Source: Verrucomicrobiota bacterium | Lineage (GTDB): Bacteria > Verrucomicrobiota > Verrucomicrobiia > Chthoniobacterales > UBA10450 | Length of the DNA stretch: 43,966 nt | Direction: 5' to 3' | Assembly: GCA_003219415.1 (NCBI GenBank) | Contig: QHOS01000029.1 | Location: 1-43,966, forward strand | Shown: piece after piece, positions 1 to 29,195 of the stretch | Position numbering within the stretch: the stretch's first letter is position 1 | How the letters are laid out: the number at the start of each line of letters is the position of its first letter | Position numbers and translations under genes: made by a program | The notes under the pieces: model-generated | The model's database searches: none | What the model was told of the DNA's origin: nothing | What the model saw: the letters and a program-made list of their open reading frames with translations, nothing else

Positions 1-378
1 AAATCGATGCGACCCAATATCAAAGTGATCGCGGTTGAACCGGAGAATGCAGACGATGCCGCGCAATCGTTTCGTGAGGGAAGAGTGATCCACACCGAAA
101 AGAAATTCACCATTGCAGACGGACTGCGGACAAATGTCGGCGAACCAAACTTCGCGATCATCAAGCGTTATACGGACGACATTGTGACCGTGAGCGAGGA
201 CGCGATTATCTCTGCCATGCGCACGATTTGGGAGACGATGAAAATCATTGTCGAGCCCTCAGCGGCTGTTCCGGACGCTGCGATTCAGGAGGGGAAGATC
301 GATGTCGAGAGGCAGCGAGTCGGAATTATTCTCACCGGAGGGAATGTCGATCTCGAGGCGTTGCCGTGGAATCTGTAG
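1..378 (+). CDS. Threonine dehydratase / serine racemase-like PLP enzyme, C-terminal part (5' end cut by window)
   Basis: The reading frame is open from the first base of the window, so the gene begins outside it. The visible 125 residues match the C-terminal part of fold-type II PLP enzymes of the threonine ammonia-lyase / serine racemase group. That group deaminates or racemises Ser/Thr and feeds branched-chain amino acid synthesis or hydroxy-amino acid catabolism. Family-like stretches are GLRTNVGEPNF, the helix around VSEDAIISAM, IIVEPSAAV and the glycine-rich ILTGGNVDL. No C-terminal ACT regulatory domain follows, so this is the short, catabolic or racemase-like form. The catalytic Lys lies upstream of the window, so substrate choice cannot be read. 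The TAG stop lies inside the left arm of a palindromic repeat. Confidence 0.8.
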   Translation, partial: KSMRPNIKVIAVEPENADDAAQSFREGRVIHTEKKFTIADGLRTNVGEPNFAIIKRYTDDIVTVSEDAIISAMRTIWETMKIIVEPSAAVPDAAIQEGKIDVERQRVGIILTGGNVDLEALPWNL

Positions 379-426
379 CCGGGATCGATGATCCCGCCCC
401 GACCGGCATCAACGATGCCGGCTACA
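374..426. repeat. Composite palindromic repeat with TGTAGCCGG / CCGGCTACA ends
   Basis: The outer 9 bp arms are perfect inverted repeats (374-382 and 418-426). They enclose two nearly perfect hairpins with 3-base loops: 380-396 (stem CGGGATC) and 403-421 (stem CCGGCATC). The left arm contains the stop codon of the upstream gene. The ends resemble those of the longer element at 29196-29295. It is a REP-like element or a terminator-like structure; no T-tract follows. Confidence 0.7.
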
Positions 427-466
427 ACTCCGCGCGGAAGCGTAAGAAAAAAAAGAAAGCTAAATC

Positions 467-1259
467 GTGGCAACCTGCGTTTTGTTTTTCTTCGCGAGCA
501 TTGTTGGGGGAGTTATTAATGCAATAGCCGGTGGCGGTGGATTGATAACGTTCCCGCTGCTTGCTGGTCGTTGGGCCAATGACTGCCGATGCGACAAGCG
601 CGGTGGCTGGGTTCGCCTCGTATCCGACGGCAGTTTGGCGTACCCGAAATCTGTTAACCGGAGTTCTGGGCAGCGGTGGGTTATGGCTTCTCGTGATCCC
701 CAGTTTTCTCGGTGGATTGATTGGAGCGCTGCTTCTGAGTCATAGGGGCAATCGCAACTTCATAGAGTTCATACCATGGCTAGTGTTACCAGCCACTATT
801 ATCATTGCGTTGCGCCCGGTCCTGGTCCGACGAAGAGAAGGCGGTACCTTGCAGCCAGATCTCGCGCAGATGTTATGGCCGGTCGCAATGGCGGGCATCT
901 TCGTGGTGGCGCTCTATGACGGATATTTTGGAGCGGGCATCGGTATCCTGATGATCGGCGCTCTGACCTTCATTTCGCCGGGCGAGATTAGCCATGTGGT
1001 TGCGCTGAAGAATTTCCTGAATTGCTGGATGCGAGGAGTCGCTGTGTTTGTGCTCGTGCTTGATGGTAATGTGGACTGGAATTACGGCGCGCCGATGGCT
1101 GTCGGTGGTTTGGTTGGTGGCTACATCGGGGGGATTGTGTCGCATCGCGCAAACCGAGCCGTTGTTCGGTCAATCGTCATCGTTATCGGTCTTACAGTGG
1201 CAGGGTACTATTTCTGGAAGTTGTATGGACCGGCTGTAATGGGTGTAGGCGGCGAGTAG
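467..1259 (+). pseudogene. TSUP-family (TauE/SafE) membrane permease, interrupted by one frameshift
   Basis: TSUP proteins are inner-membrane permeases for sulfite, sulfoacetate and related anions. The first frame, from GTG 467, gives the typical first segment with NAIAGGGGLITFPLL. It then leaves the family, while the frame that starts around 561 continues with VVGPMTADATSAVAGF and several further membrane helices to 1259. Removing one T at 561-562 restores FPLLLVVGPMTADATSA and a protein of about 263 residues, a normal length for the family. Everything downstream is intact. It may be a recent pseudogene or a base-call error. No slippery site or stimulatory structure suggests programmed frameshifting. 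Confidence 0.75.
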
Positions 1260-1350
1260 CGGCTGGGGATAGCGAGATTTTTCGCGTTATCGGGAACCAG
1301 TAACTCGATCAAAATCGAAACCCTTGTTCGTGAAGGGAGTTTAATTACCT

Positions 1351-1884
1351 ATGAAAGCATTGAGTTTTATCACAGCAGCATTTATTCTCGTATTTGGCTC
1401 TATTGCCTCGCGCGGCGCGAACTTAGACAGGATTTCGACTGAAACCGGAGTTCCTGTTGCTACGTTGCAAGCGGAGAGGGCATCAACTGGGCTCGGGTGG
1501 GGTGGATTAGAGAAGGCGCACCTGCTCGCAAACGAATCCGGTAGGAGCTTCGATGACATCGTGGCACTGCATAAGAGTGGCGAAGGCTGGGGCAAGATTG
1601 CGCACGATAGCGGGCTCAACCTTGGAAAGGTCGTGAGCAACGCGCATCACTCAAGCAAGGCGACGTCGCATTCCCAAAACATCCACAGCCAGAAGCTTCA
1701 TGGCAAGAGTGCCAGTAAGATAAGCAAGAGCCACGGCAGCAAGATGGACACCATGAGAGGGGTCAATCACGGTTCGAGCTTCAGAACCGCCCATACAGGA
1801 TTCCATGGTACGCATGGGATGGGTCGGATGGGCGGTATGGGACATGGCATGGGTAGCATGGGTCACGGCGGTCACGGCCGGTAA
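1351..1884 (+). CDS. Secreted small protein with His/Gly/Met-rich tail
   Basis: The 177-residue protein starts with a clear signal peptide (residues 1-23, cleavage near SRGA), preceded by a good ribosome binding site (GAAGGGAG). The mature N-terminal half carries a helical stretch with FDDIVALHKSGEGWGKIA. I recall this pattern from small secreted proteins of unknown function. The middle is Ser/His/Lys-rich, and the last 30 residues are built of GMG, GHG and MGGM units rich in His and Met. Such a tail could bind copper or another soft metal in the periplasm, but this is inference from composition. No operon partner is evident. Confidence 0.7.
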   Translation: MKALSFITAAFILVFGSIASRGANLDRISTETGVPVATLQAERASTGLGWGGLEKAHLLANESGRSFDDIVALHKSGEGWGKIAHDSGLNLGKVVSNAHHSSKATSHSQNIHSQKLHGKSASKISKSHGSKMDTMRGVNHGSSFRTAHTGFHGTHGMGRMGGMGHGMGSMGHGGHGR

Positions 1885-1919
1885 AATCGCTAACCCGAAG
1901 AGCCGCCTGCGACGAAGGA

Positions 1920-2384
1920 TTACTTAAGAGTAATCTCGCGCATGGTTTTTGTGCCGAGAATTTCGCGGATGTCGAGGCGCTTTACAGCGGTGGCGCGGCG
2001 CTGGTCTTCAGTCCCCATGATCTTCTCGACAATGGGATCCATCTTGTCACGAAGGTTATCGAATGCTGCCCAGTTAGGATATTCAACCAGAATTAGAATG
2101 TTGAAATCCTGAGGACCGGAAGCCTCTCCATTCAGGATTTTGTAGTCGAGGATGACCTTTTGCTTTTTCTCCTCGTCATACACAGGCTTCACGGTGCCGG
2201 TGATCTGTTTGAGGTAATCATCGCCCAAACCGGTCTTGGTTTTTACCATCGTCAGAGTCCAAACGGGCCCTTCGTTGTAAGGCGCATTGCTGCCTTTCGA
2301 ACTCGCAGTATCTGGCTGTGCCAAGCAGGTGAAAGCGAGAGTCAACGATGCGCACGCGATTGCATAGATCTTAGTGGTGGTCAT
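1920..2384 (-). CDS. Secreted protein of unknown function, dimeric alpha-beta barrel-like
   Basis: This 154-residue protein has a signal peptide (residues 1-22, ending FTCLA) and a charged, single-domain mature part. The pattern of strands and helices (VWTLTMVKTKTG, then FNILILVEYPNWAAFDNLRDKM) resembles ferredoxin-like dimeric barrel proteins of the NIPSNAP/ABM type. I do not recognise a named family. It stands alone between convergent genes. No cofactor ligands are obvious. Function unknown; secretion is well supported. Confidence 0.65.
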   Translation of the reverse strand: MTTTKIYAIACASLTLAFTCLAQPDTASSKGSNAPYNEGPVWTLTMVKTKTGLGDDYLKQITGTVKPVYDEEKKQKVILDYKILNGEASGPQDFNILILVEYPNWAAFDNLRDKMDPIVEKIMGTEDQRRATAVKRLDIREILGTKTMREITLK

Positions 2385-2467
2385 GTGGGCACATTGGTTC
2401 GGCTGTGTTTAAGAGGCGAGAACAATTTCCCAGATATGGTTCAGCCACCCTGCGGAATACGATTCGC

Positions 2468-4870
2468 CTAGATATCAGTCGTGGACCAGAATTTACGAAA
2501 CGCGTTTGGCCAGCTCCGGTCGGTGACACTCTTTCTGGCGGCGTTGCCCATGCGTTCCCGCAACGCTGGATCGGCAACCAGTGAGCGGATGGCTTGAGTG
2601 AAATCATTCACATCACGTGATCGAGTGATCAAACCGTTCGTCCTGTCTTCCACTAATTCCTTGGGCCCGCCGGAATCGGAAACAATGACCGGTACCCCAC
2701 AAGCCTGCGCTTCCAGGATGACATTGCCGAATGTGTCGGTGGTGCTCGGGAACACGAAAATGTCGGCTGACGCATACGCGGTGGCTAACTCTTTCCCTCT
2801 AAGGTAGCCGGTAAAAAATGCCTCTGGCACTGATTGAGCAAATGCTTCCGAGTACGGGCCGTGACCGACGACAAAAAGCTGCACCGCAAGGCCCTCATCG
2901 CGCAATCGGCGGTAGGCATCTGCCAAAACATCGAGATCTTTCTCCCGCGATATCCGGCCAACGTAAAGCAGGCGAACCTGACCGTTAGTGGCGCCAAATT
3001 TTTCCCAAAAAGCGGACTCGCGCCGTGCCGGAGTGAACAGTTCGGTATCGAGACCGCGCGGAAGAATTTTAAGTTTTGCGGGATCAAATCCGTGCTTGAT
3101 CCAGCTTTGTCGATACTCTTCAGAATTAACGAAAACGGTGTCGAGCTGGCCATAGAACCAATGCATGTAGCGCCACGCCATGCTTTCCAGGAAGCTATCC
3201 TCGGTGAGAATCCGGACGTATTGCGGGAAATCCGTATGGTAAATGCCGCTCGTTTGCAGGTTGAGCATTTTGGCCGCGAGGAGTGCAGTCAGCCCGACTG
3301 GCCCAGGCGTGCTGATGATAATCTCGGTGAATTTTTCCCGTTGTATGTAATCGAGCATCTGCAGAATCGGCGGGAAACTTAATTTTTGGAGTTCGTACTC
3401 GGGCAATTCGAATTCGCCGATGGGCGGGAAGTTTTTAATTGGGATCTTGTACGTTTGGAGATTGCTGTGCGAAGTTACGACAGTCAGTTCGTTGCCGGCG
3501 GCGGCCCCGGCGGCAGTCATCTTGCGAATCGTAGTAGCCACGCCATTGACGTCGTCGAGCGTATCGGTGAACCAGGCGCGTTTGCGGTTTTGCAATTCGA
3601 TCGGAATTTCTCCGGTCAATTCCAGAAAGATAGCCCGCAGCCATTTCCGGGAAGGCGCCTGGCTGTGAAACCCATAGATGTAAGGCGTAAGAACGACCAG
3701 GATCGGCACGATCGCGCTAAGAGCTTGCATGCTCTCGACCATGTTGCCGCTGCCGATTTGCTGAACGAATTTGTGGAAAAACCGAAACGTGAGCTGCTCG
3801 GCCACCATGTTTGCCATGAGAAATGTGCGGCGCTCCGGTTCGTGGACTCCCTCTAATTGCGCGGCCAGTTTCGCTTTCACCCCAGGCTGCGCGAAATAAC
3901 CGGAAAGTTCTTTCCACAGTGACACGTTCGCAGGCTTGACGAAGTCAAAAATTTTTCCCGACAAAACGCCCTGCACGATAAATTCCATTTTTTCTTTGAG
4001 AGTGAATTCAGTCGGGGCGCGGCCTTCCATGAACCGCGAAAACATTTTCTCGAGCAGCGCGGCGCCCGGTCCGAGTTTTTCATTGAAACGATCCTGGATG
4101 AAACAGGCGACCGTGTTATAAAAACCGTGGGAAAGGACCAGCGGGGTGCCGCCGTGGCCATGCGCGCTGCACTCGCCGTTGCGAACGCGTTCGAGGAATT
4201 TTTCCGCCGATTTCGCCGCCGGAGTTTCCGTAAAAGCCGAAGCAGCGAATTGCCCACCGTGATCGTCCGAGCCCCCAACAAGAATTTTCTTCCAGGGCTC
4301 TGTGTGGGTGGGCGCCAGATTGTGGCGATTTGCGAGCACATCGATCTTTTCCGGCGTCAGTTGTTTGAACAGTGTCTGGGCCAGATCGCTTAGAAGGGCA
4401 TCGCGCAAACCGTTGATGCCCTCGAAATGCTTGAAGAGAAGCATGAGCAGCTCAAGATGATGCGAATCGAGTTTGCCGTTGATGCTGTAAAGGGGATGCG
4501 CAACCGCGTGCGCGATGTGCGCTGCCTGCAAGTAGCGTTGCAGCTCAAAAATATTATCGCGTATCGCATCGATCTCGCGATGCTGATTCTCTGAAATTCC
4601 CCAAACAAGTACGTGCACCTTGCACGCGTCGTTGGGAAAATAGGTGGTGACTTGTTCGCTGATAAACGTGCGAGGCCGATCAACGATTTGCAGGCAGCCC
4701 TCGATGCTATCGTGGTCGGTAATGGTGACGTAGTCCATTCCTCGCTCGAGCAACTTTCCATACAGTTGTTTCGGGTCGGAATAGCTGTCGGGGAAATCGA
4801 AACGGCGAAAGAGCCATTCTTCAGAGCGCGCACTGTAGCGCGAATGAATATGAAGATCGCACCTGCTCAC
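2468..4870 (-). CDS. PHP-domain / GT4 glycosyltransferase fusion protein
   Basis: This protein of about 800 residues joins two enzyme folds. The N-terminal 250 residues are a PHP metallohydrolase-like domain with metal-binding motifs CDLHIHSRYS, TITDHDS and GGSDDHGG. A middle helical stretch (about 250-430) is unassigned. Residues of about 435-790 form a GT-B glycosyltransferase of family 4. It shows YVGRISREKDL, FVFPSTTDTFGNV and an EAQACGVPVI segment of the nucleotide-sugar site. The frame extends upstream to 4975. I place the start at GTG 4870, two bases after the deacetylase stop, preceded by GGGGGA, which avoids a 100 bp overlap. Coupling to the deacetylase suggests a role in envelope glycolipid or polysaccharide synthesis. 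The PHP substrate is unknown. Confidence 0.85.
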   Translation of the reverse strand: MSRCDLHIHSRYSARSEEWLFRRFDFPDSYSDPKQLYGKLLERGMDYVTITDHDSIEGCLQIVDRPRTFISEQVTTYFPNDACKVHVLVWGISENQHREIDAIRDNIFELQRYLQAAHIAHAVAHPLYSINGKLDSHHLELLMLLFKHFEGINGLRDALLSDLAQTLFKQLTPEKIDVLANRHNLAPTHTEPWKKILVGGSDDHGGQFAASAFTETPAAKSAEKFLERVRNGECSAHGHGGTPLVLSHGFYNTVACFIQDRFNEKLGPGAALLEKMFSRFMEGRAPTEFTLKEKMEFIVQGVLSGKIFDFVKPANVSLWKELSGYFAQPGVKAKLAAQLEGVHEPERRTFLMANMVAEQLTFRFFHKFVQQIGSGNMVESMQALSAIVPILVVLTPYIYGFHSQAPSRKWLRAIFLELTGEIPIELQNRKRAWFTDTLDDVNGVATTIRKMTAAGAAAGNELTVVTSHSNLQTYKIPIKNFPPIGEFELPEYELQKLSFPPILQMLDYIQREKFTEIIISTPGPVGLTALLAAKMLNLQTSGIYHTDFPQYVRILTEDSFLESMAWRYMHWFYGQLDTVFVNSEEYRQSWIKHGFDPAKLKILPRGLDTELFTPARRESAFWEKFGATNGQVRLLYVGRISREKDLDVLADAYRRLRDEGLAVQLFVVGHGPYSEAFAQSVPEAFFTGYLRGKELATAYASADIFVFPSTTDTFGNVILEAQACGVPVIVSDSGGPKELVEDRTNGLITRSRDVNDFTQAIRSLVADPALRERMGNAARKSVTDRSWPNAFRKFWSTTDI

Positions 4871-4872
4871 AG

Positions 4873-5616
4873 CTACATCCCCCGTCTCAATCTTTGTTGC
4901 GCGATCCAGTCCTGATAGGTCGTAACTGTCCGCGACCCCATCGCCCTTTCGATCATACTCGTGACTTGGCGCCAAATCGCCGGATGCGAATAATCGGGTG
5001 GATGAATGCTAATGCGCAAAAGTGGCCTTCCCTCTAGATATCGAAAGAGAGTGGCATTGCAGATTCGGCTAATTCCGCGCCGCCAGTTCCTTCGAACACT
5101 GTAGACAATCGATCGCGCGGCGAACTCATTGCCCGCCCGGAGATCGCACACCTTGTGTAACCGCGTGGTATATTCCATCCCGGCATCGCATACGGCGCGC
5201 TCAGCTTCCTTGCTGAGCAGCCATGCTGGAGCCACAAAACCTCGCGGCTTGAGATTATTCGCGCGAAATTCATCTCGCGCGGCTGTAATTCGACGCAACG
5301 CTTCATCGTAGTTCAGGTCGTAAAATTCACCTTCTTGTTGCGTGTAAAATCTCGTGAAGAACTTGTCGTGGAAGCTCTCTTTGGCACTGCAAGGGCGCTC
5401 ATGAAAATATCCGTGAATAACGATTTCGTGACCGTCCGCTTCCAAGCCCCGTAGCCAGGACACAAATTGTTGATTTCTCGCGAACAGCCCCTGATGATGA
5501 TAATCCGGGACGACAAGAAGAGAACAAACGCTCACCCCGCGCCGAGCCAGTTCTGAAATGATTGTGTTTGCGATCTGCTGAGTGGAGGGGGCGACGTCAT
5601 GCAAAGACACGACCAT
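4873..5616 (-). CDS. DUF2334 / polysaccharide deacetylase-like protein
   Basis: The protein belongs to the DUF2334 branch of the NodB-like carbohydrate esterase fold. It has VSLHDVAPS near the N-terminus (metal-binding Asp), EIVIHGYFH in the middle (metal His motif) and FVAPAWLLS later. The family is thought to remove acyl groups from glycans. The frame stays open to an ATG at 5682, but the ATG at 5616 has a good Shine-Dalgarno (AAGGGA, 4 bases away) and places the HDVAP motif at the usual distance from the start. The stop lies two bases before the proposed start of the glycosyltransferase, so the two are co-translated. There is no signal peptide with this start, so it is probably cytoplasmic. 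Confidence 0.8.
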   Translation of the reverse strand: MVVSLHDVAPSTQQIANTIISELARRGVSVCSLLVVPDYHHQGLFARNQQFVSWLRGLEADGHEIVIHGYFHERPCSAKESFHDKFFTRFYTQQEGEFYDLNYDEALRRITAARDEFRANNLKPRGFVAPAWLLSKEAERAVCDAGMEYTTRLHKVCDLRAGNEFAARSIVYSVRRNWRRGISRICNATLFRYLEGRPLLRISIHPPDYSHPAIWRQVTSMIERAMGSRTVTTYQDWIAQQRLRRGM

Positions 5617-5787
5617 GAAATCCCTTGTGGCAGCGCCGGTTGCGACAAGGGGAAGAAAGTCCGTTGCCGCAATTGTACTCATTGGGGAATTTTCGGCCTC
5701 GACATAGCTTTGAACAAGGCAAATCGATATCGTGACTCATTAAAACGTTCCATCGTTACGCCGTAGCGAATTGCCGACCCTCTAGGG

Positions 5788-5811
5788 GTTCAACGATTTA
5801 ACGATTTAACG
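5788..5811. repeat. Octamer tandem array, three units (minus strand CGTTAAAT type)
   Basis: Read on the minus strand this is CGTTAAAT, CGTTAAAT, CGTTGAAC. The TAA stop of the EVE-domain gene (5806-5808) lies inside the array. The same octamer theme occurs at 40215-40238. Confidence 0.55.
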
Positions 5812-6219
5812 TGGCGAAGCCATCTTTACAATTTCGCGAAATTCCGATTCCGCCAACGGCATAACGGACAGACGTGATTGCCTAACTAAAGCTATTCCTT
5901 TCAGCGGCGGATGGCTTTTGATCTCGCGAAGTGTAACTGGCCGGTGCAGCGGTTTGACCGGAGCAAGATCAACAGTCGACCAGTCGCCTTCCTTTGCGGT
6001 CGAATCTCGATATGCGGTTCGAATTACTTTCGCGATCCCCACGACCGCTTTGTCGTCGCCGCTATGATAGAAAAGAACTTCATCGCCGTTCTGCATTCTA
6101 CGAAGATTGTTTCGGGCAGAGTAATTGCGTACGCCGGTCCAACTGGTTTGGCCTTCCGCGACAAAGTCCGACCACGAATATGAGGATGGCTCCTGTTTCA
6201 CGAGCCAGAAATTTTTCAT
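5806..6219 (-). CDS. EVE domain-containing protein
   Basis: This 137-residue protein is a complete EVE domain, a PUA-like fold related to YTH that is thought to recognise modified bases in DNA or RNA. Diagnostic features are the start FWLVKQEPSSYSW, WTGVRNYSARNNL, GDEVLFYHSG and VGIAKV. The length equals that of typical bacterial single-domain EVE proteins. It is divergent from tmk and has no restriction or defence partner beside it, so no specific role can be read from context. The 3' end runs into a short tandem octamer array. Confidence 0.9.
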   Translation of the reverse strand: MKNFWLVKQEPSSYSWSDFVAEGQTSWTGVRNYSARNNLRRMQNGDEVLFYHSGDDKAVVGIAKVIRTAYRDSTAKEGDWSTVDLAPVKPLHRPVTLREIKSHPPLKGIALVRQSRLSVMPLAESEFREIVKMASPR

Positions 6220-6270
6220 ATGCCGAAACTAATCCAATTAACTTGTGTGGGGCAAACTTCCCGGCTGTGC

Positions 6271-6329
6271 TGGAGGGCGGAGCTCCGGCGACGCCAGAAG
6301 GACTTGCGCTCGCGAAGCTCGCCCCTCCA
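6271..6329. repeat. Inverted repeat upstream of tmk
   Basis: The left arm TGGAGGGCGGAGCT (6271-6284) and right arm AGCTCGCCCCTCCA (6316-6329) pair with two mismatches around a 31-base centre. It lies in the divergent gap between the EVE gene and tmk, so it may be a repeat element or affect the tmk leader. I recall similar GGAGGG...CCCTCC elements from related genomes but cannot verify this here. Confidence 0.5.
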
Positions 6330-6376
6330 ACTGCGCGCGTTCGACAATCACGCCGGCTTGTTTCACAATCGACATC

Positions 6377-7021
6377 ATGCGCCGGCTGCCATTCATCACG
6401 TTCGAAGGATCAGAGGGCAGTGGAAAATCGACGCAGGTGCAGAGATTGGCCGCGCGACTGGAGCGTTCCGGGGTGCCACATCTGGTCACCCGCGAACCCG
6501 GCGGCACGCCGATCGGCGAAACCATTCGTGAACTTCTGCAATTTGCTTCGCACAATTCGAGTATGACCCCGGAAGCGGAGCTGCTTCTCTTTGAGGCGAG
6601 TCGCAGCCAGCTCGTGCGGGAGATTATCAAGCCAGCGCTTGAACGTGGCATTTGCGTGATTGCCGATCGTTTCTTTGATTCCACAACCGTTTATCAAGGC
6701 GCGGCACGAAAATTAGATCGTGAGACGGTCGAACGTTTGAATGTATTTGCGGTCGGCGATTGCATCCCAAACGTTACTTTTGTTCTTGATATCGATGCGG
6801 CTACCGCGAAGTCGCGAATGCAGAAACCGCGCCGACGAGATCGGATGGAGCAGGAGCCTGAGGAGTTTTACGAGAGCGTTCGGGAAGCGTATCGCGAACT
6901 GGCCACGCGCGACCCGAATCGCGTTGTACTAATCAACGGCTCACGTGGAGCGGACGTGATCGAGAATGAGATATGGAAAACGCTTTGTGGCCGCTTCCCA
7001 ACTCTAAACACTCGCCAGTGA
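6377..7021 (+). CDS. tmk: Thymidylate kinase
   Basis: Phosphorylates dTMP to dTDP with ATP, the step that feeds dTTP synthesis; cytoplasmic. The P-loop EGSEGSGKST is at the N-terminus, followed by the substrate-binding TREPGGTPIGE and by ADRFFDSTTVYQG, the DR[YF] motif that contacts the nucleotide. VLDIDAATAKSR and the Arg-rich lid (KPRRRDRME) follow. The ATG at 6377 gives 214 residues, the normal family size. The open frame extends further upstream but only through a repeat. It is followed by a four-helix-bundle gene and then holB. The tmk-holB order is common in bacteria, so the middle gene looks inserted. Confidence 0.95.
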   Translation: MRRLPFITFEGSEGSGKSTQVQRLAARLERSGVPHLVTREPGGTPIGETIRELLQFASHNSSMTPEAELLLFEASRSQLVREIIKPALERGICVIADRFFDSTTVYQGAARKLDRETVERLNVFAVGDCIPNVTFVLDIDAATAKSRMQKPRRRDRMEQEPEEFYESVREAYRELATRDPNRVVLINGSRGADVIENEIWKTLCGRFPTLNTRQ

Positions 7022-7023
7022 CA

Positions 7024-7461
7024 ATGGCGAACGAAACGGCGAGACGGGAAGACGGCGAGACGGCGAGAAAACCGATTCGGCATTTCCGCGATTTGGACGT
7101 GTACCAGAATGCCCTCGTGGCTGGCCTACGTGTTTACGAGTTAACGAAGCGATTTCCAATCGAAGAACGCTACGCGCTGACTGATCAAGCGCGTCGATCA
7201 TCGCGCTCAGTTTGTGCAAATGTTGCCGAAGCGTGGCGGAAGCGTCGCTACGAAGCAGCGTTCATCGCAAAACTTAGCGATGCAGAAAGTGAAGCCGCGG
7301 AAACGCAGGTTCATTTGGAATTCGCATTTCACCACAGATATCTTTCGCACAATGAGTTTCTGAGCGTCGATGACGCCTACGCAAAAGTAATCGGCCAGCT
7401 CGTTAAGATGATCGACAAACCCGATAAGTGGCTGATCAAAAATTCGCCGCGTCGTCTATGA
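7024..7461 (+). CDS. Four-helix-bundle protein (S23 / 23S rRNA IVS family)
   Basis: The 145-residue protein matches the four-helix-bundle family first seen in 23S rRNA intervening sequences. It shows HFRDLDVYQNALV, ANVAEAW and the helical AKLSDAESEAAETQVHLEFA. Its biochemical role is unknown. The start at 7024 lies 2 bases after the tmk stop. Its first 18 residues (ETARREDGETARK type) are low-complexity and encoded by a GACGGCGAG-like array, so the true functional start may be near residue 19. A similar array in opposite orientation lies just after the gene (7495-7540). It separates tmk from holB, and no rRNA is nearby. Confidence 0.85.
   Translation: MANETARREDGETARKPIRHFRDLDVYQNALVAGLRVYELTKRFPIEERYALTDQARRSSRSVCANVAEAWRKRRYEAAFIAKLSDAESEAAETQVHLEFAFHHRYLSHNEFLSVDDAYAKVIGQLVKMIDKPDKWLIKNSPRRL
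7032..7067. repeat. Left flank low-complexity array of the four-helix-bundle gene
   Basis: Repeats of the form CGAAACGGCGAGACGG / GACGGCGAGACGGCGAG fall within the first codons of the four-helix-bundle gene. The reverse complement of 7495-7540 begins CGAAACGGAGAATCGG, so the two flanks form imperfect inverted arrays. Confidence 0.45.
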
Positions 7462-7494
7462 ATCGCCACAAAACAGAGCAATTGCGAGATAGGG

Positions 7495-7540
7495 AAACGG
7501 CGGCTTCGCCGATTCGCCCATTCGCCGATTCTCCGTTTCG
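7495..7540. repeat. Right flank low-complexity array of the four-helix-bundle gene
   Basis: Contains ATTCGCCGATTC-type units and ends CTCCGTTTCG. Its ends (AAACGG...CCGTTT) also pair with each other. It lies between the four-helix-bundle gene and holB, and is an inverted counterpart of 7032-7067. Confidence 0.45.
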
Positions 7541-7555
7541 TCAGTTTTGAGTGAT

Positions 7556-8524
7556 ATGGCTTTCTCACGTACAACAGCGCTGGAGTATTTGCGTCGCGCC
7601 CACGAACAGAATCGACTCGCGCATGCCTATTTGATTTCAGGGCCGCCAGGCAGTGGCAAGCAGCAGCTCGCCGCAGACCTGGCCAGTCTTGTGAATGGCA
7701 CCCCTGTCGGTGACGTTTTTTCCGCCAAGGCCCGTGAAATTTTTGTTGCCCGGCCGGAATCGAAATCGCGCCGAATTGTTATCGAGCAAATTCGTCGTCT
7801 TGAGCACGCGCTGCAAATGCGCGCAAGTAATTCGCGGCGCAAGGTGGCGATCATTTCCGATGCCGATCGGCTACAGCCGCAGGCTGCAAACGCGTTTCTC
7901 AAAACATTGGAGGAACCGCCCAAAGATTCTTTGCTGCTTCTGCTGAGTGCTTTGCCGGAAGCGCTACCGGAGACGATTCTTTCGCGGTGCATTGCGCTTC
8001 CCCTTGCAAGAGACGGCCAGCGACAGCCGAGCGACGAAGAAAAGAAGCTCGTGAAATTATTACAGGTGTCCCATGAACAAAGCTGGACCATTCAGTTTGC
8101 CTACCGACTGGCTCAGGAATTTCAGAGTTTGCTCCGCTCTGTTCGTGAAGAGGTTAAGCGCGAAACAGATGAAGCACTGAGGCAGGAACAAATACGTTAC
8201 AGGGATGCGACCGATGGCGCGTGGCTGGAGGAACGCGAACAATACTACAAAGCCCGTGCCGAAAGTCTTTACCTGCAACGGCGCGCAGAATTGATCGAGA
8301 CATTATTCGCCTGGTGGTCTGACGTTCTGCGCTCCAGTAACGGTGTGGCGCAACGTAGTCTTCCTGGTGCGGGAAAAGAAACCGCTGCATTGGCAGGCCG
8401 ATTCAGCACAGCCGAAATCTTGAAGCGCATCCGGTGTCTTGAAGAATTGCGCGATCACTTGAATCGCAATATCCACGAAGCGCTCGCAATCGAAGTCGCG
8501 TTCCTCACAATCTTCACCGCATGA
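7556..8524 (+). CDS. holB: DNA polymerase III delta-prime subunit
   Basis: Clamp-loader subunit that helps load the beta sliding clamp on primed DNA. The N-terminal AAA+ module has HAYLISGPPGSGK (P-loop), IEQIRRLEHALQ, IISDADRLQPQAANAFLKTLEEPP and a sensor 1-like ILSRC. This is the usual delta-prime signature. The canonical zinc-binding Cys cluster of DnaX/delta-prime is not apparent. The C-terminal third is divergent and helical. The ATG at 7556 is preferred over the in-frame TTG at 7547, giving 322 residues. It sits downstream of tmk, its common neighbour. Confidence 0.88.
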   Translation: MAFSRTTALEYLRRAHEQNRLAHAYLISGPPGSGKQQLAADLASLVNGTPVGDVFSAKAREIFVARPESKSRRIVIEQIRRLEHALQMRASNSRRKVAIISDADRLQPQAANAFLKTLEEPPKDSLLLLLSALPEALPETILSRCIALPLARDGQRQPSDEEKKLVKLLQVSHEQSWTIQFAYRLAQEFQSLLRSVREEVKRETDEALRQEQIRYRDATDGAWLEEREQYYKARAESLYLQRRAELIETLFAWWSDVLRSSNGVAQRSLPGAGKETAALAGRFSTAEILKRIRCLEELRDHLNRNIHEALAIEVAFLTIFTA

Positions 8525-8651
8525 CACTCTAGCCGGGGTCGCTGACGCCAGTATACCTACGGATTGGCAATTGCTCTGGCTGGGTGGTGGTGGAACCAAT
8601 CTAACTCGCAAGGTTGACAAAAAGCCGCCCAATCATATCCAGTATCCACAT

Positions 8652-9305
8652 ATGCGACATATCTCCCGATTACTCTTGCTGTGTGCTGGCGGTTCGCTTC
8701 TGCTGCTGACTGGTTGTCAAACAGGGCGCGTAGCAGGCGGCCCCTATCACGTAACCGCATATCGTCCGAACAATCCCTCCGCCGTGCGAGTGCTCGTTTC
8801 GCTTTCAAAAGAAAACATTTATGTCATGGAGGGCGACCGTTGCCTGATGGCCGTGGCATGTTCGGTTGGGACTGCCGCGAAACCGACGCCGAAAGGAAAT
8901 TTCAAGGTCTACTCCAAACAGGAGCACAAACGTTCGGGATCGTACGGCTTTAGCGTGCAAGGCGATCGCATAATTCCTTCAACTGGCGGAGGAGGAGGCC
9001 GGTATGTCGGATACCCGATGGGTTATTGGTGCGAATTCGCTCCTGCCTACGGCTTTCACCAGGGCTTTGTGCATCCGACTCCCCGCACACACGGTTGCAT
9101 TCGACTGCACGGCGAAGCAGCGCCGAAATTTTTCGCGCTCGTAAGAGTCGGGACCCCGGTGAACATCGCCACTACGCAACCAGAGGACGCGACTCTTGCA
9201 TCGAAAGTGCAGCGTGTGGATGATTCGAGAACGCCTGATCCCGATCCGCGGATAATGGTCAGCGACGGCGCGTTCGAAAAACCGAGCGGACCATTGCTTC
9301 AATAG
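8652..9305 (+). CDS. Lipoprotein L,D-transpeptidase (YkuD domain)
   Basis: Predicted envelope enzyme that makes 3-3 peptidoglycan cross-links or attaches proteins to peptidoglycan. The ATG at 8652 begins a lipoprotein signal peptide with lipobox LLTGC. The YkuD fold spans about residues 50-185. The catalytic motif HGCIRLHG contains Cys149 and His147, with the expected upstream His at GFVHPTPRTHGC. A Gly-rich insert (STGGGGGRY) lies before the active site. The protein has 217 residues, normal for single-domain members. A GC-rich hairpin (9314-9326) follows the stop. Confidence 0.9.
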   Translation: MRHISRLLLLCAGGSLLLLTGCQTGRVAGGPYHVTAYRPNNPSAVRVLVSLSKENIYVMEGDRCLMAVACSVGTAAKPTPKGNFKVYSKQEHKRSGSYGFSVQGDRIIPSTGGGGGRYVGYPMGYWCEFAPAYGFHQGFVHPTPRTHGCIRLHGEAAPKFFALVRVGTPVNIATTQPEDATLASKVQRVDDSRTPDPDPRIMVSDGAFEKPSGPLLQ

Positions 9306-9313
9306 CAGGTTGC

Positions 9314-9326
9314 GGGGCGTTGCCCC
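9314..9326 (+). terminator. Possible hairpin terminator after the L,D-transpeptidase
   Basis: GGGGC-GTT-GCCCC forms a 5 bp GC stem with a 3-base loop, 8 bases after the stop codon. The downstream GGGCCGTTTACC has only a short T-run, so termination is uncertain. Confidence 0.3.
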
Positions 9327-9339
9327 GGGCCGTTTACCG

Positions 9340-9433
9340 TGTCATGTTGAGCGAAGCGAAACGTCTCTGGCTCCTGTTTCGACGCCCCTCGGACAAAACT
9401 GATCCGAGATCCTTCGCTGCGCTCAGAATGACA
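9340..9433. repeat. MITE-like TGTCA...TGACA palindromic repeat, copy A
   Basis: Imperfect palindrome of 94 bp between the L,D-transpeptidase and ispH. The left arm reads TGTCATGTTGAGCGAAGCGA. The right arm, read on the minus strand, starts TGTCATTCTGAGCGCAGCGA. One of five copies in the window (see 10700, 22216, 24316, 42304). Confidence 0.85.
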
Positions 9434-9441
9434 ACAATTGT

Positions 9442-10680
9442 ATGAGCACGAACCTGATTTCCAGCGGCACAACAGCGCGGGAGAAAGTAAACCTCCGCAC
9501 ACCGGACGTGATGGCTGCCGTGCAGCAACAGGTGGAATCGCACTACCGCAGCGACATCGTGGAAAAAGTTCGCCGGGCGGGTGGGATCATCTCAGTGGGC
9601 GATACTACAGTGCGTCTGGCAAAACAGTTTGGTTTTTGCTACGGGGTGGAGCGCGCAATCGATCTGGCGTACGCAGCCCGCAAGGTCTTTAAGGATCGTC
9701 GTCTTTTTATCGTCGGGGAAATCATTCACAATCCGGAGGTCAATCATCAAATCGCGTCGTTAGGCATTAAGAACTTGACCGGCAAAAACAAGGAGGCCGA
9801 CATTTCCGATCTCGGTCCCGATGACGTTGTTATTGTCCCGGCGTTTGGAACCGAATTATCGATTCAACAACAGATCAAGGATCGCGGCTGCCAGATTGTC
9901 GACACCACGTGCGGAGACGTGATGAGCGTCTGGAAGCGAGTGCGCAAGTACGCGAGCGAATCGGCCACTTCTATCATTCACGGGAAGGCTGAACACGAAG
10001 AAACAAAGGCCACCAGCTCGCGCGCTCTCGGTAACGGCAGCGGGCATTACCTGGTCGTTCTGACACTCGCGGACACCGATTACGTTTGCGATTACATCCG
10101 GAACGGTGGTGACAAACAGGCGTTCCTCGAGAAGTTCAAAGGGGCCTATCCACCGGGGTTCGATCCCGACGTGCATTTGCAAACCGTTGGCGTGGCAAAT
10201 CAAACCACCATGCTGCGTGGGGAAACCGAAGAAGTGCAGCGGCGCGTTCGACGGGCGATTGTCGATCGAGACGGGCCCGACCTCGCCGAGCAAAATTTTC
10301 GGTTTTTCGACACGATCTGCGGCGCAACGCAGGAGCGACAGGATGCGTTGCGCGAATTGCTCGATGTGCCAATGGACCTGCTGCTGGTCGTAGGTGGTTA
10401 TAATAGTTCGAACACATCTCATCTGGCCGAGATGGGCGAAGAAAAATTGCCGACCTATTTCGTGCTCAACGCTTCGCGACTGGTTTCCGCTACGGAGATC
10501 AAGCACTACAACTTGCACGAAAAGCGCGAAGTGGTTTCGCATTTCTGGCTGCCGAATGGACCCGCCGTCATCGGCATCACTGCGGGCGCATCGTGTCCGA
10601 ACAATCTGATCGAAGAGACATTGATCCGCCTTTTTGAATTGCGCGGTATCTCGCGCCACGAGCTCGAGCTGGCCGCGTAA
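9442..10680 (+). CDS. ispH: 4-Hydroxy-3-methylbut-2-enyl diphosphate reductase
   Basis: Last enzyme of the MEP pathway: reduces HMBPP to IPP and DMAPP with a [4Fe-4S] cluster. Three conserved Cys ligands are visible: Cys66 (FGFCYGVERA), Cys157 (DTTCGDVMS) and Cys293 (FDTICGATQERQ). Catalytic-region motifs HGKAEHEE and GGYNSSNTSHLAE are also present. At 412 residues it is about 100 longer than E. coli IspH, with an N-terminal extension of about 55 residues and enlarged loops. This is the long form I recall from Verrucomicrobia, Bacteroidetes-like and plant/cyanobacterial lineages. The ATG at 9442 lies just after repeat copy A. It would supply isoprenoids for, among others, hopanoids (see HpnR). 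Confidence 0.95.
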   Translation: MSTNLISSGTTAREKVNLRTPDVMAAVQQQVESHYRSDIVEKVRRAGGIISVGDTTVRLAKQFGFCYGVERAIDLAYAARKVFKDRRLFIVGEIIHNPEVNHQIASLGIKNLTGKNKEADISDLGPDDVVIVPAFGTELSIQQQIKDRGCQIVDTTCGDVMSVWKRVRKYASESATSIIHGKAEHEETKATSSRALGNGSGHYLVVLTLADTDYVCDYIRNGGDKQAFLEKFKGAYPPGFDPDVHLQTVGVANQTTMLRGETEEVQRRVRRAIVDRDGPDLAEQNFRFFDTICGATQERQDALRELLDVPMDLLLVVGGYNSSNTSHLAEMGEEKLPTYFVLNASRLVSATEIKHYNLHEKREVVSHFWLPNGPAVIGITAGASCPNNLIEETLIRLFELRGISRHELELAA

Positions 10681-10699
10681 CGACGACGACAGCCCCGTC

Positions 10700-10793
10700 T
10701 GTCATCCCGAGCGAATCGAGGGATCTCAAACTATGTCCTCGCTGCCAAGGTCGGGTTAAGAACAGAGATGTCTCGACTTCGCTCCACATGACA
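10700..10793. repeat. MITE-like TGTCA...TGACA palindromic repeat, copy B
   Basis: Imperfect palindrome of 94 bp between ispH and ku. The left arm is TGTCATCCCGAGCGAATCGA. The right arm, on the minus strand, is TGTCATGTGGAGCGAAGTCG. It begins 19 bases after the ispH stop. Confidence 0.8.
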
Positions 10794-10837
10794 AAAGCTG
10801 GGCGCGCGGTTCCTGCCCGCCACACGAATAGGTTTGT

Positions 10838-11680
10838 ATGGCGCGCGCAATCTGGAAAGGCAGCATCAGTTTCGGTCTGGTTAACATTCCGATCGCCCTG
10901 TATCCCGCCACGCGACGTGAGGAACTCAAGTTTCGTTTGCTGCGCAAGAGCGATTTGAGTCCGGTAAACTACAAGCGTGTCGCTGAAAAGGACGGCAAGG
11001 AGGTTTCCTGGGACCAAATCGTAAAGGGGTATGAGTATGAGAAGGGAAAATACGTCGTGCTCAAGGACGAGGATTTTGAGCGCGTTGATCTGGAGGCCAC
11101 ACAGACAGTGGACATTCAAGACTTCGTCGATCAGGAAGAGATCGATCCGATGTTTTTTTATAAGCCCTACTATTTGGAACCTCAGAAAGGCGGCGATAAA
11201 GCGTACACGCTTCTGCGCGATGCGTTAAAGGATAGCAACAAGGTCGGGATCGCCAAGGTGGTGATTAAGACGCGCCAATATCTCGCCGGGGTAAAACCGG
11301 AAGATGGCACGCTCGTTCTCGAGCTGATGCATTTCGCCGATGAACTTGCGGACCCGGAAAAGCTCCATGTCCCGAAAAAAACCGAGGTCGGCAAACGCGA
11401 GATGAACATGGCCAAATCGCTCATCGATAGCATGAGCTCAAAATGGAACCCGGAAAAGTACAAGGACGACTACCGGGAAGCGCTAATGGAAGTGATCGAG
11501 GAAAAAGTGGAAGCCGGCGGGAAAGAAATCGAAGAGAAACCGAAGAAAGCCCCCAAGCCGACGAAAGTAATCGATCTGGTTTCCGTATTGCAGAAGAGCT
11601 TGGAGCAAACCGGCGGAAAGAAAAAGGCGACTGGCAAATCGGGCAGGAAACAGAAGCAACCTGCAAAGAAAGCAGCGTGA
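10838..11680 (+). CDS. ku: Ku protein (non-homologous end joining)
   Basis: Forms a homodimeric ring on double-strand DNA ends and recruits LigD in bacterial NHEJ. It starts with the very typical MARAIWKGSISFGLVNIPI and continues with GYEYEKGKYVVL, EIDPMFFYKPYYLEP and LRDALKDSNKVGIAKVVI, which cover the Ku bridge core. KSLIDSMSSKWNPEKYKDDY marks the end of the core. The last 45 residues are Lys-rich, as in the DNA-binding tails of other bacterial Ku proteins. 280 residues is normal. No ligD is present in the window, so the partner must be elsewhere. Confidence 0.96.
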   Translation: MARAIWKGSISFGLVNIPIALYPATRREELKFRLLRKSDLSPVNYKRVAEKDGKEVSWDQIVKGYEYEKGKYVVLKDEDFERVDLEATQTVDIQDFVDQEEIDPMFFYKPYYLEPQKGGDKAYTLLRDALKDSNKVGIAKVVIKTRQYLAGVKPEDGTLVLELMHFADELADPEKLHVPKKTEVGKREMNMAKSLIDSMSSKWNPEKYKDDYREALMEVIEEKVEAGGKEIEEKPKKAPKPTKVIDLVSVLQKSLEQTGGKKKATGKSGRKQKQPAKKAA

Positions 11681-11846
11681 GGTGGATCGGCTTCTCAGAA
11701 GACGATGGCGAAGAAAATCGCCGAAGGCGCGAATATGAGGCGGCGAAGCCGCATTGTTTAGCCAACATGTTAAGGACAACGCGTTTCATCGTTGATATCG
11801 TAACGGGCTTGACATAGCAGCTCCGCCTCGTTCAGCGTGAACGGCT

Positions 11847-12287
11847 ATGAATTCTCTTAATCGATTTGCGGATCCCGTTTACTGTATTATGCGACTGATA
11901 GTCGGTCTTATGTTCGCATGTCACGGTGGTCAGAAGATGCTGGGCTTTCCTGGCGGCGGGCATGGTGGCGCCCAAGGACTAATGCTGATCGGTGGAATCA
12001 TCGAGCTCGTTGGCGGGTTAATGATTGCGTTTGGGTTTCTCACGCGCCTCGCCGCGTTCGTCTCTGCAGGTGAAATGGCGGTTGCCTACTTCATGGTACA
12101 CGCTGCGGGTAAAGCGATCGGTCATGCGCCAACTCCGACGGAGCAATTTTTTCCAATTCTAAACAAAGGCGAACTGGCCGTGGTTCTCTGCTGGCTGTTT
12201 TTATTCATGCTCTTTTATGGACCGGGACGCTGGAGCATCGACTCGGTTCTCTTCAAAGGTAAAGCTACTGCCTCGCCTGCGGCTTAA
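11847..12287 (+). CDS. DoxX family membrane protein
   Basis: The 146-residue protein has four predicted membrane helices. DoxX-like motifs are CIMRLIVGLMFACHGGQKML in the first helix, GLMLIGGIIELVGGLMIAFG in the second and AAFVSAGEMAVAYFMVHAA in the third. The family acts in the inner membrane, often with redox or oxidative-stress genes. The gene is followed after 40 bases by a secreted dienelactone hydrolase on the same strand, so the two may be co-transcribed. The exact function is not known. Confidence 0.88.
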   Translation: MNSLNRFADPVYCIMRLIVGLMFACHGGQKMLGFPGGGHGGAQGLMLIGGIIELVGGLMIAFGFLTRLAAFVSAGEMAVAYFMVHAAGKAIGHAPTPTEQFFPILNKGELAVVLCWLFLFMLFYGPGRWSIDSVLFKGKATASPAA

Positions 12288-12327
12288 GTGGAGATCGCCA
12301 CCTCTAAGGCGAAAAGATGAATGCGTT

Positions 12328-13152
12328 ATGAAACAAAAATTTCTCCTGGCGCGTTTCTTTGTTGGAACGTTGTTTGCTTCGCTTATGTGCGACTCGGCCT
12401 GTAACGCAAGGGCGGAGGAAGTGAAAGATTTTGGTCGGGAACAGTTGAACAACTCACCGCGACACGGCGAATGGGTCGATATCAAATCGGGCGAGCGAAC
12501 GATCAAGGCGTTTGTTGTTTATCCAGAGCGCAAGGACAAGTCGCCTGTCGTGCTTGTTGTTCACGAAATCTTTGGCGTAACCGATTGGGTCCGCAGTTTG
12601 TGCGACGAGCTTGCCGAGGCTGGCGTGATTGCAATCGTGCCTGATTTGCTCAGCGGCCAAAAATTCGAGGACGTAGATGGCGCGCGCAAAGCGATATCTG
12701 CACTGTCGAAAGAACAGGTGAAAGCGGATCTGGATGCAACGGCTGATTATGCCCTAACGAAGATTCCGTCGTGCAATGGCACACTGGCAATCTGCGGATT
12801 CTGCTGGGGCGGGGGAGTGGCGTTTGCGTACGCCAATGAAAACCCAAAACTAAAAGCCGCCTATTCTTTTTACGGCACCCCGCCCGATGAACCTTCCAAA
12901 GTCGCGAATATCGCGGGTCCCGTTTACGGCTTTTACGGCGAGAACGACGAGCGCGTGAACGCAACCATTCCCAAGGGCGAAGAGCTAATGAAAGCCGCCG
13001 GCAAGAAATATGAGCCCGTGATCTACAAAGGCGCCGGCCACGGTTTCATGCGACTAGGTGAGCCGTCCAATCCAGCAGTTCGCGAAGCTGATAAAAAAGC
13101 GCGCGACGAAGCCTGGGCGCGTTGGAAAACGCTGCTGAAACAGCTGCCATAA
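12328..13152 (+). CDS. Secreted dienelactone hydrolase family protein
   Basis: Alpha/beta hydrolase of the dienelactone hydrolase (CMBL) type, 274 residues. A signal peptide (residues 1 to about 29, ending ACNARA) directs it to the periplasm. The nucleophile elbow GFCWGG gives a Cys nucleophile at about residue 159, typical for DLH. The acid and base of the triad are in YGENDERV and GAGHGFMR. The start is the ATG at 12328. An open frame extends upstream but lacks family similarity. The natural substrate cannot be told from sequence. Confidence 0.9.
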   Translation: MKQKFLLARFFVGTLFASLMCDSACNARAEEVKDFGREQLNNSPRHGEWVDIKSGERTIKAFVVYPERKDKSPVVLVVHEIFGVTDWVRSLCDELAEAGVIAIVPDLLSGQKFEDVDGARKAISALSKEQVKADLDATADYALTKIPSCNGTLAICGFCWGGGVAFAYANENPKLKAAYSFYGTPPDEPSKVANIAGPVYGFYGENDERVNATIPKGEELMKAAGKKYEPVIYKGAGHGFMRLGEPSNPAVREADKKARDEAWARWKTLLKQLP

Positions 13153-13266
13153 GTCGATGGTAGGATTCTCCGCGGGCTATCGCTAGAAATTCGTCAGACG
13201 TGTGCCGACAAAATTTGTGGCGGGCCGCGATCCTCGTCACGTTCGCGGCTACACTGGTTCCGTGCT

Positions 13267-27556: not shown

Positions 27557-29101
27557 TCAGTCGGCCACCCCCATGCGCGTCACATTAACAAACTCTTCCG
27601 TGTGATGATCGATCTGCCGACCGCCGCGTCCCCGATTTTGGTGAATGTAAAGCGCGTCTCGTTGCACGGTGGAGACGGAAGGCGGCGGTAGATTGATTTC
27701 GTATTTCACCGGTTGACGGTGATCTGCGAGTTGCAGCTCCGGATGATAGACGCTGTCGAACTTCCAAAGCATCCGGATGAAATTGGTCTGTCCGCGAAGT
27801 AATTGCCGCGCAACGATGCGCGCACAGTCTCGAAGGGCGGCCCATCCAAGATGTTTATGGGAAAGGACTCGCTGAGTGTCGACAAGCTCCTTGTAAAACT
27901 CCGGAAGTGGCAACTTGGTTGGCAGCACAGCGTGTTGGATGTCGAACAGCCGGTAGTCACGCGTAGTAAGCCGACGCGATTCGGTGCGCCATGTTTCTGT
28001 CCCAGGATAAGGCGTGTTAATGCTGATGTTAACGACCTCCGGAATTTCGAGGCACCAATCGCGTACGACCTTGAATCGTTCGCGGTCCCAAGCGGGATCG
28101 GCAATGATATTGACAGCTACCGATATATCGAGCGAGCGAGCAAACTCCAACGCCTCGAAATTCTTTGAGAGCGTCACACGCTTTCGATAACGCTTGAGTC
28201 CATCTTCGTCGATCGCTTCAAGGCCGAGGAACATGGTATTCAGACCAAGCCGCTTCCACAGCTGGAAGATCTCTTTGTTACGCAGCAGCACGTCGCCGCG
28301 TGTTTCGAGGTAATATCGTTTTCGGATCCCGCGACGGGCAATGGCCTCGCCAAGCTGCATTCCGTGCTCGGCTTGAATAAAAGCTACGTCGTCCACGATA
28401 AAAATTCCGGGCTCGCGTATTTGCGCCAGCTCCTCAACGGCGAACTCGGGTGTCTTGACGCGGTAGTTGCGTCCGTAGAACGTCCACGCACTGCAAAAGA
28501 CGCAATCCCAGGGGCAGCCCCGGCTAAACTCGATGGAAGCAGCCGGGTCCAACGCGCCGATGAAATACTTTTGGCGATGCTGAAGCAGGTCGCGGGCGGG
28601 GAGTAAATCGTCGAGCGATTTCACGAACGCGGGCGGTGGACCCCGATGATCGAGCGTTACGCAACCGGAAACATTGTTTAAGTTCGGCGGATTCTCGCCT
28701 AGCGCATCGAGCAGCCCGGTGATCGCCGTTTCGCCTTCGCCGGTCAGCACGCAATCCACGGCGCCGCCAGCGTGCCGCAAAATTTCTTCGGGGATAAACG
28801 AAACACTGTGTCCACCGACACAGATGAATGTTTCCGGCAATAAGCCCCGCGCAGAGCGAGCGAGATCGATGACTTCAGGAACGTTAGCGAGGTAATTGAC
28901 GCAAAACGCGATGACGTCCGGTTGCCATCGTTTGACCAGGCGGAAAAAATTCTGGTGCGGTTCGCATTGCAAATCAATCAAGCGAACAGAGTGACCGGCG
29001 CCCCGCGCCGCGGCAGCAACAAGTTCGAGGCCCAGCGGTTCGAGGCGAAGATAGATCTTTGAGTACATCAGGCAGCTGGGATGAACGGCCAGGAATTTCA
29101 T
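27557..29101 (-). CDS. hpnR: B12-binding radical SAM protein, hopanoid C-3 methylase HpnR-like
   Basis: Cobalamin-dependent radical SAM enzyme, 514 residues from ATG 29101 (the frame extends to 29143). Residues of about 1-150 are a B12-binding fold (EPLGLELVAAAARGAGHSV, VGGHSVSFIPEEIL). The radical SAM core carries Cx3Cx2C at Cys196, Cys200 and Cys203 in RGCPWDCVFCSAW. YGRNYRVKTPE, IFIVDDVAFIQAEHG and the C-terminal KFDSVYHPELQLADH are as I recall from HpnR, which methylates hopanoids at C-3. Cyclase (shc) and other hpn genes are absent from the window, so the assignment rests on the protein itself. A related B12 radical SAM methylase with another substrate is the alternative. Confidence 0.82.
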   Translation of the reverse strand: MKFLAVHPSCLMYSKIYLRLEPLGLELVAAAARGAGHSVRLIDLQCEPHQNFFRLVKRWQPDVIAFCVNYLANVPEVIDLARSARGLLPETFICVGGHSVSFIPEEILRHAGGAVDCVLTGEGETAITGLLDALGENPPNLNNVSGCVTLDHRGPPPAFVKSLDDLLPARDLLQHRQKYFIGALDPAASIEFSRGCPWDCVFCSAWTFYGRNYRVKTPEFAVEELAQIREPGIFIVDDVAFIQAEHGMQLGEAIARRGIRKRYYLETRGDVLLRNKEIFQLWKRLGLNTMFLGLEAIDEDGLKRYRKRVTLSKNFEALEFARSLDISVAVNIIADPAWDRERFKVVRDWCLEIPEVVNISINTPYPGTETWRTESRRLTTRDYRLFDIQHAVLPTKLPLPEFYKELVDTQRVLSHKHLGWAALRDCARIVARQLLRGQTNFIRMLWKFDSVYHPELQLADHRQPVKYEINLPPPSVSTVQRDALYIHQNRGRGGRQIDHHTEEFVNVTRMGVAD

Positions 29102-29195
29102 CTGTTTCGCGCAGGTCTTGATCTGGTTGAGCTCTCTGGGCAAGTGCTTTCCGAAGTTCTTCGCGTGGTGTTGGCTCGTCGCGCGTATTCAAAAT

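Follow-up and report, generated by a model that had tools for sequence, protein, structure and literature searches.

The two adjacent genes described here, which encode a PHP-GT4 fusion and a DUF2334 deacetylase in a Verrucomicrobiota bacterium, are predicted with a probability of about one in two to form one half of a gpgSDF-related amino-glycolipid module, with the fusion as a second, distinct GT4 enzyme. The gpgSDF genes make glucosaminyl-phosphatidylglycerol (GlcN-PG) in Pseudomonas aeruginosa (PMC12713373). The pair is located on the reverse strand of the window, which is the whole stretch of 43,966 nucleotides analysed (contig QHOS01000029.1). The features are as follows.

4873..5682, reverse strand: DUF2334 / GpgD-like deacetylase, 269 aa (PF10096, 90.4 bits; NF053788, 199.6 bits)
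2468..4870, reverse strand: PHP-GT4 fusion, 800 aa, GTG start (open reading frame; full-length homologues in 33/288 Verrucomicrobiota genomes)
4136..4870, reverse strand: PHP domain, residues 1-245 (profile alignment, ligand positions, PMC3666897 consensus)
3584..4135, reverse strand: helical middle region, residues 246-429 (predicted all-helical; no family match)
2471..3583, reverse strand: GT-B fold GT4 glycosyltransferase domain, residues 430-800 (Pfam, model, NF053787)

The stop codon of the deacetylase (TAG at 4875-4873) is followed by 2 bases (CT) and then by the GTG of the fusion at 4870, and both frames are open. The deacetylase may start at ATG 5682 or at the alternative ATG 5616, which was chosen in the initial annotation. 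The GTG start of the fusion (VSRCDLH...) agrees with homologues starting with MSKCDLH. The 2-base gap bears out the coupling of the two genes proposed in that annotation, and its three-part architecture of the fusion (PHP, middle region, GT-B) was recovered by Pfam, profile alignment and structure model. The 800-residue layout is common to nearly all fusions, while the 2-3 most divergent ones possess a different middle region. An open-literature search turned up no publication describing a PHP-GT4 fusion. Elsewhere in the window, a gene for a 162-aa protein (6973-7461), which by eye resembles four-helix-bundle proteins of the 23S rRNA intervening-sequence type, lies between thymidylate-kinase-like and DNA polymerase III delta-prime-like genes and its start overlaps the thymidylate-kinase-like gene. 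A B12-binding radical SAM protein (PF02310 and PF04055) is encoded at 27557-29143. No Rfam match was found in window 1-14000.

The PF02811 score of the fusion is 17.2 bits against a gathering threshold of 26.4, and other members of the fusion family reach at most 18.2 bits. Several of them show a weak PHP_C match at residues 193-235. With a 58-row profile of residues 1-245 as hhalign query, residues 3-236 aligned at 92.4% (E 5e-7) with a PHP protein from the window's own genome, while 8 non-PHP controls each gave 1.4% or less, and the PHP assignment made earlier thus holds despite the sub-threshold Pfam score. A PDB sequence search with the N-terminal half of the fusion returned nothing significant, and no plasmid match was found for it. 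As residues 1-440 modelled on their own gave a mean pLDDT of 44, the PHP fold was judged by profile comparison instead. In the full-length predicted structure the confidence of the PHP part is mostly 85-97, and the match list of this model against the PDB was filled by the GT domain.

In catalytic PHP domains the nine residues of the metal site follow the consensus H H D/H H E H C/H D/N H (PMC3666897). The corresponding residues of the window fusion are H7 H9 A14 H53 Q73 H86 H125 D202 H204, that is 7/9 canonical ligands, with D14->A at position 3 and E73->Q at position 5. In DnaE1 of M. tuberculosis, D->N at the position matching the first replaced ligand abolishes the PHP nuclease activity, and E->Q at the second yielded no protein (PMC5636811). 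Because two of the nine ligands are replaced, phosphatase action of the window fusion appears doubtful and its PHP half is probably no longer working as a phosphatase. The adjacent glutamate E72 might substitute for Q73. Among 82 aligned homologues, the strict nine-ligand set is found in 17 from several families, and 4 more depart from it only in having N instead of D at position 8, as the consensus permits (PMC3666897). The histidines H7, H9, H53, H86, H125 and H204 are each kept in at least 78 of the 82, and the exact window pattern (A and Q) occurs in 35, all near the window lineage. The fusion of genome G280 has 4/9 ligands left, so the protein is retained there though its metal site is gone. 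These patterns suggest that the PHP domain ancestrally had a metal site, which decayed in the window's order, and that the domain now probably acts as a structural or ligand-sensing module. An apparent one-residue drift of the ligand glutamate was also observed in the family at residues 71-74 (bases 4649-4660), with the variants SSELT, SEEVT and SEQVT.

The C-terminal part of the fusion is a complete GT4 glycosyltransferase of GT-B fold by domain, fold and donor-site residues. PF00534 (121 bits) and PF13439 (77 bits) score far over their cut-offs, the predicted structure of residues 428-800 resembles BshA, MshA and PimB' in the PDB with Z values of ~25-26, and the donor-site residues R639, K644, D712 and E720 are kept and nearly invariant in homologues. 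Glycosyl transfer by the window fusion is likely on these grounds. Its best NCBIfam model is NF053787 (GlcN_PG_synth) with 135.9 bits, below the cut-off of 480, and the next best model scores 95. The GT domains of the fusions group as a single clade (support 100/99) broadly tracking taxonomy; the fusion is therefore old and was probably inherited largely vertically. The middle region (246-429) is predicted to be all-helical, with low confidence in its first half. The domain search suggested for it in the initial annotation gave no Pfam and no PDB sequence match, and the region is unrecognisable in the most divergent fusions. In locus L141 (genome G152) the fusion gene breaks up after the PHP domain into two frames (278 and 574 residues) that overlap, owing to a frameshift, a sequencing error or a true fission of the gene.

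The deacetylase scores 90.4 bits with PF10096 (DUF2334), for which the gathering threshold is 26. Its best NCBIfam model is NF053788 (GlcNAc_PG_deac) with 199.6 bits over positions 3-240 of 241, below the cut-off of 280. As all scores with the GlcN-PG models are below the equivalog cut-offs, the proteins are regarded as '-like' and not as members, and the window deacetylase is named 'GpgD-like' rather than GpgD. Its residues H28-D29, H90, H94, H227 and D230 are kept in 76-77 of 77 homologues. Since these residues and the donor site of the glycosyltransferase are near-invariant while PHP ligands are lost, the most economical interpretation is that constraint in the window lineage would act on glycosyl transfer and deacetylation and not on PHP catalysis. 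Plasmid-borne DUF2334 genes of Sphingomonas and Thermomicrobium were considered as well and set aside; these lie near ordinary glycosyltransferases, with no PHP fusions.

The scan for related loci, which reaches close relatives only, collected 60 loci, 58 of them with true fusion relatives. The deacetylase and the fusion are situated within ~20 bases, in the same strand and order, in 50 of the 56 Chthoniobacterales-like loci showing both genes. This tight linkage rules out chance and shows that the pair, whose conservation elsewhere the initial annotation had made decisive, is indeed conserved; the accompanying idea that both proteins act on one glycoconjugate is counted as supported. The deacetylase is always the first gene, and in the 6 exceptions the two genes are 132-1333 bases apart. 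Intervals of ~1.1-1.3 kb between deacetylase and fusion were seen in two MAGs (L049:3907-5001 and L065:3634-5001).

The tighter partners of the deacetylase are a GpgS-like GT4 and a GNAT protein, which in its own genome are encoded outside the window (contig C157, L135). The stand-alone GT4 of C157 scores 282 bits with NF053787 against the cut-off of 480, twice the GpgS score of the fusion, and 83 bits with the MshA model. Its gene overlaps the gene for a 231-aa protein which has no Pfam match and whose profile matches the solved GNAT acetyltransferases 4bmh and 3zj0. One operon in the order GT4-GNAT-deacetylase-fusion, with GT4-GNAT directly upstream of the pair, is found in L113, L114, L117 and L141. 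In L139/L140 a GpgS-like GT4 gene (268 bits) stands immediately beside one for a UPF0104 flippase, with the fusion within a few kb; the best model of this flippase is GlcN_PG_flip with 122 bits against a cut-off of 320. A gpgSDF-type cluster of glycosyltransferase, deacetylase and flippase is present in L139/L140 and absent from the window's own genome, where no GpgF-like flippase was found. Two further neighbourhood features were noted. A gene that begins 44 bases downstream of a PHP-GT4 fusion encodes a PlsC-type acyltransferase plus GNAT protein (OlsB-like; L123:4033-5886), a further lipid link. A family of ~572 aa without Pfam match ('LFIIDGI.PFF....INWSK.PF') occurs within several kb of the fusion in at least three families (L116:8010-9725, L119, L120, L124, L139:15144-16859, L140:714-2426).

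Co-occurrence was surveyed in a phylum sample of 288 Verrucomicrobiota genomes, in which the GpgD-like deacetylase was counted at >150 bits. The fusion was found in 33 genomes, the deacetylase in 17 and both in 16. Thus 16 of the 17 deacetylase genomes possess the fusion (Fisher 3e-16) and 16 possess the GNAT (Fisher 2e-25), both values being indicative as they ignore shared ancestry. A GNAT of comparable strength is absent from all other genomes of the 288. The fusion is present without the deacetylase in 17 genomes, 16 of which also have no GpgS-like GT4 (the exception is G050), and it therefore has a role outside the amino-glycolipid pathway. Genome G143 possesses GT4, GNAT and deacetylase with the fusion absent, so this core can manage without the fusion. 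In G280 (1.7 Mb, 97% complete) the fusion and the deacetylase occur while GpgS-like GT4 and GNAT are both absent; this gene set indicates that the fusion may be able to provide the substrate of the deacetylase on its own.

A pathway of glucosaminyl-phospholipid type is the most likely setting for the deacetylase, because the best models are gpgSDF-like, a GpgS-like GT4 and a GNAT co-occur with it, operons are shared and a flippase is found in one family. In P. aeruginosa, gpgD mutants accumulate GlcNAc-PG, and gpgSDF expressed in E. coli yields GlcN-PG (PMC12713373). In the proposed scheme, the GpgS-like GT4 (C157) would add GlcNAc, with UDP-GlcNAc as the putative donor, to a glycerophospholipid, probably phosphatidylglycerol. 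The acetyl group would then be taken off by the window DUF2334 protein, and the PHP-GT4 fusion would attach another sugar to this lipid or, where a lineage has no GpgS-like enzyme, transfer the GlcNAc itself. The amine of the product would finally be acylated by the GNAT encoded beside the GpgS-like GT4, a candidate N-acyltransferase. In the window's order the PHP domain would probably be a structural or ligand-sensing part of the glycosyltransferase. As the glycosyltransferase, deacetylase and flippase reach 282/480, 200/280 and 122/320 bits, respectively, of the model cut-offs, the substrate identity may differ. No lipid analyses for these organisms were found in the literature searched. An undescribed cationic or N-acylated glycosyl-phospholipid, formed from GlcNAc on phosphatidylglycerol by deacetylation, acylation by the GNAT and extension by the fusion, with the PHP domain active where it has 9/9 ligands (e.g. 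PGP to PG) and a regulatory relic elsewhere, is a speculative end product with the odds clearly against it.

One competing explanation, taken from the initial annotation, is a bifunctional synthase/phosphatase, in which GT4 would make a phosphorylated glycoside or lipid, PHP would dephosphorylate it and the deacetylase would act on the product. Trehalose-6-phosphate synthase/phosphatase fusions follow the same logic of a glycosyltransferase joined to a phosphatase-type domain, which there is of HAD type and in the window fusion PHP. The 17 homologues with complete ligand sets and the 4 with the allowed N, spread over several families, and the six kept histidines agree with such an enzyme, but the window lineage is without positions 3 and 5, 35 homologues share its pattern and G280 retains the protein with 4/9 ligands. 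Phosphoester processing is thus not borne out for the window protein with its 7/9 ligands. Conservation of the PHP ligands among homologues, on which the idea was made to depend, stands in the wider phylum and fails in this order, where the site is eroded, and we consider a bifunctional enzyme unlikely. A different division of labour, which we also hold to be improbable, would make the fusion the sole GlcNAc transferase feeding the deacetylase in this order, with GpgS-like GT4 and GNAT as a separate route. The close coupling of the two genes in the window order and the gene set of G280 are in line with it. Against it, GNAT and GT4 co-occur near-perfectly with the deacetylase and share an operon with it in sister families.

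Other products may also be considered. GT4 enzymes and polysaccharide-deacetylase-like folds are frequent in loci for surface or LPS polysaccharide, and an LpxA-like gene lies upstream of GT4 in L113. Synthesis of such a polysaccharide instead of a phospholipid head group is nevertheless quite unlikely, as no polymerase, Wzx, Wzy or polyprenyl-phosphate transferase was recognised beside the pair in the window and the inspected operon loci, the best models are lipid-modifying and a UPF0104 flippase is the partner in L139/L140. The mycothiol pathway (MshA, a phosphatase, MshB and MshD) possesses the same part list of GT4, phosphatase, deacetylase and GNAT. A similar low-molecular-weight thiol pathway would match the logic of these parts, the likeness of the modelled GT domain to BshA and MshA, and a thioredoxin-reductase-like gene before GT4-GNAT in three genomes of the window's family. 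It is very improbable, however, since the deacetylase is DUF2334 whereas MshB/BshB are of LmbE type, the inspected neighbouring genes include no recognised MshC- or BshC-like ligase, the stand-alone GT4 is nearer to GpgS (282 bits) than to MshA (83 bits), and the reductase gene does not adjoin the operon in L113, L114 and L117. The amino-glycolipid module is the preferred reading.

It was only in 2025 that the genes for GlcN-PG became known (PMC12713373). That an abundant soil phylum has relatives of the whole set, together with two extra components, would suggest a widespread and chemically more elaborate amino-glycolipid route. It would also provide a natural experiment at phylum level, in which a PHP domain joined to a glycosyltransferase loses its metal site and the protein is kept. 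The function of the fusion, which occurs in at least 33 of the sampled Verrucomicrobiota genomes, moreover comes within reach of direct tests in E. coli.

The proposed reactions have the logic of NodC, NodB and NodA, which carry out GlcNAc transfer, N-deacetylation and N-acylation in Nod factor synthesis. The glycosyltransferase there belongs to a different family, and the acceptor proposed here is a phospholipid. In C-family DNA polymerases the PHP domain is likewise fused to a catalytic unit and has become structural in some lineages by loss of its ligands (PMC3666897, PMC5636811), but its partner there is a polymerase while in the window fusion it is a glycosyltransferase. Compared with gpgSDF (PMC12713373), both systems possess a GT4 and a DUF2334-type deacetylase, along with a UPF0104 flippase in L139/L140, whereas gpgSDF has neither a PHP-GT4 fusion nor a GNAT, and in the genome of the window the module is split over two loci.
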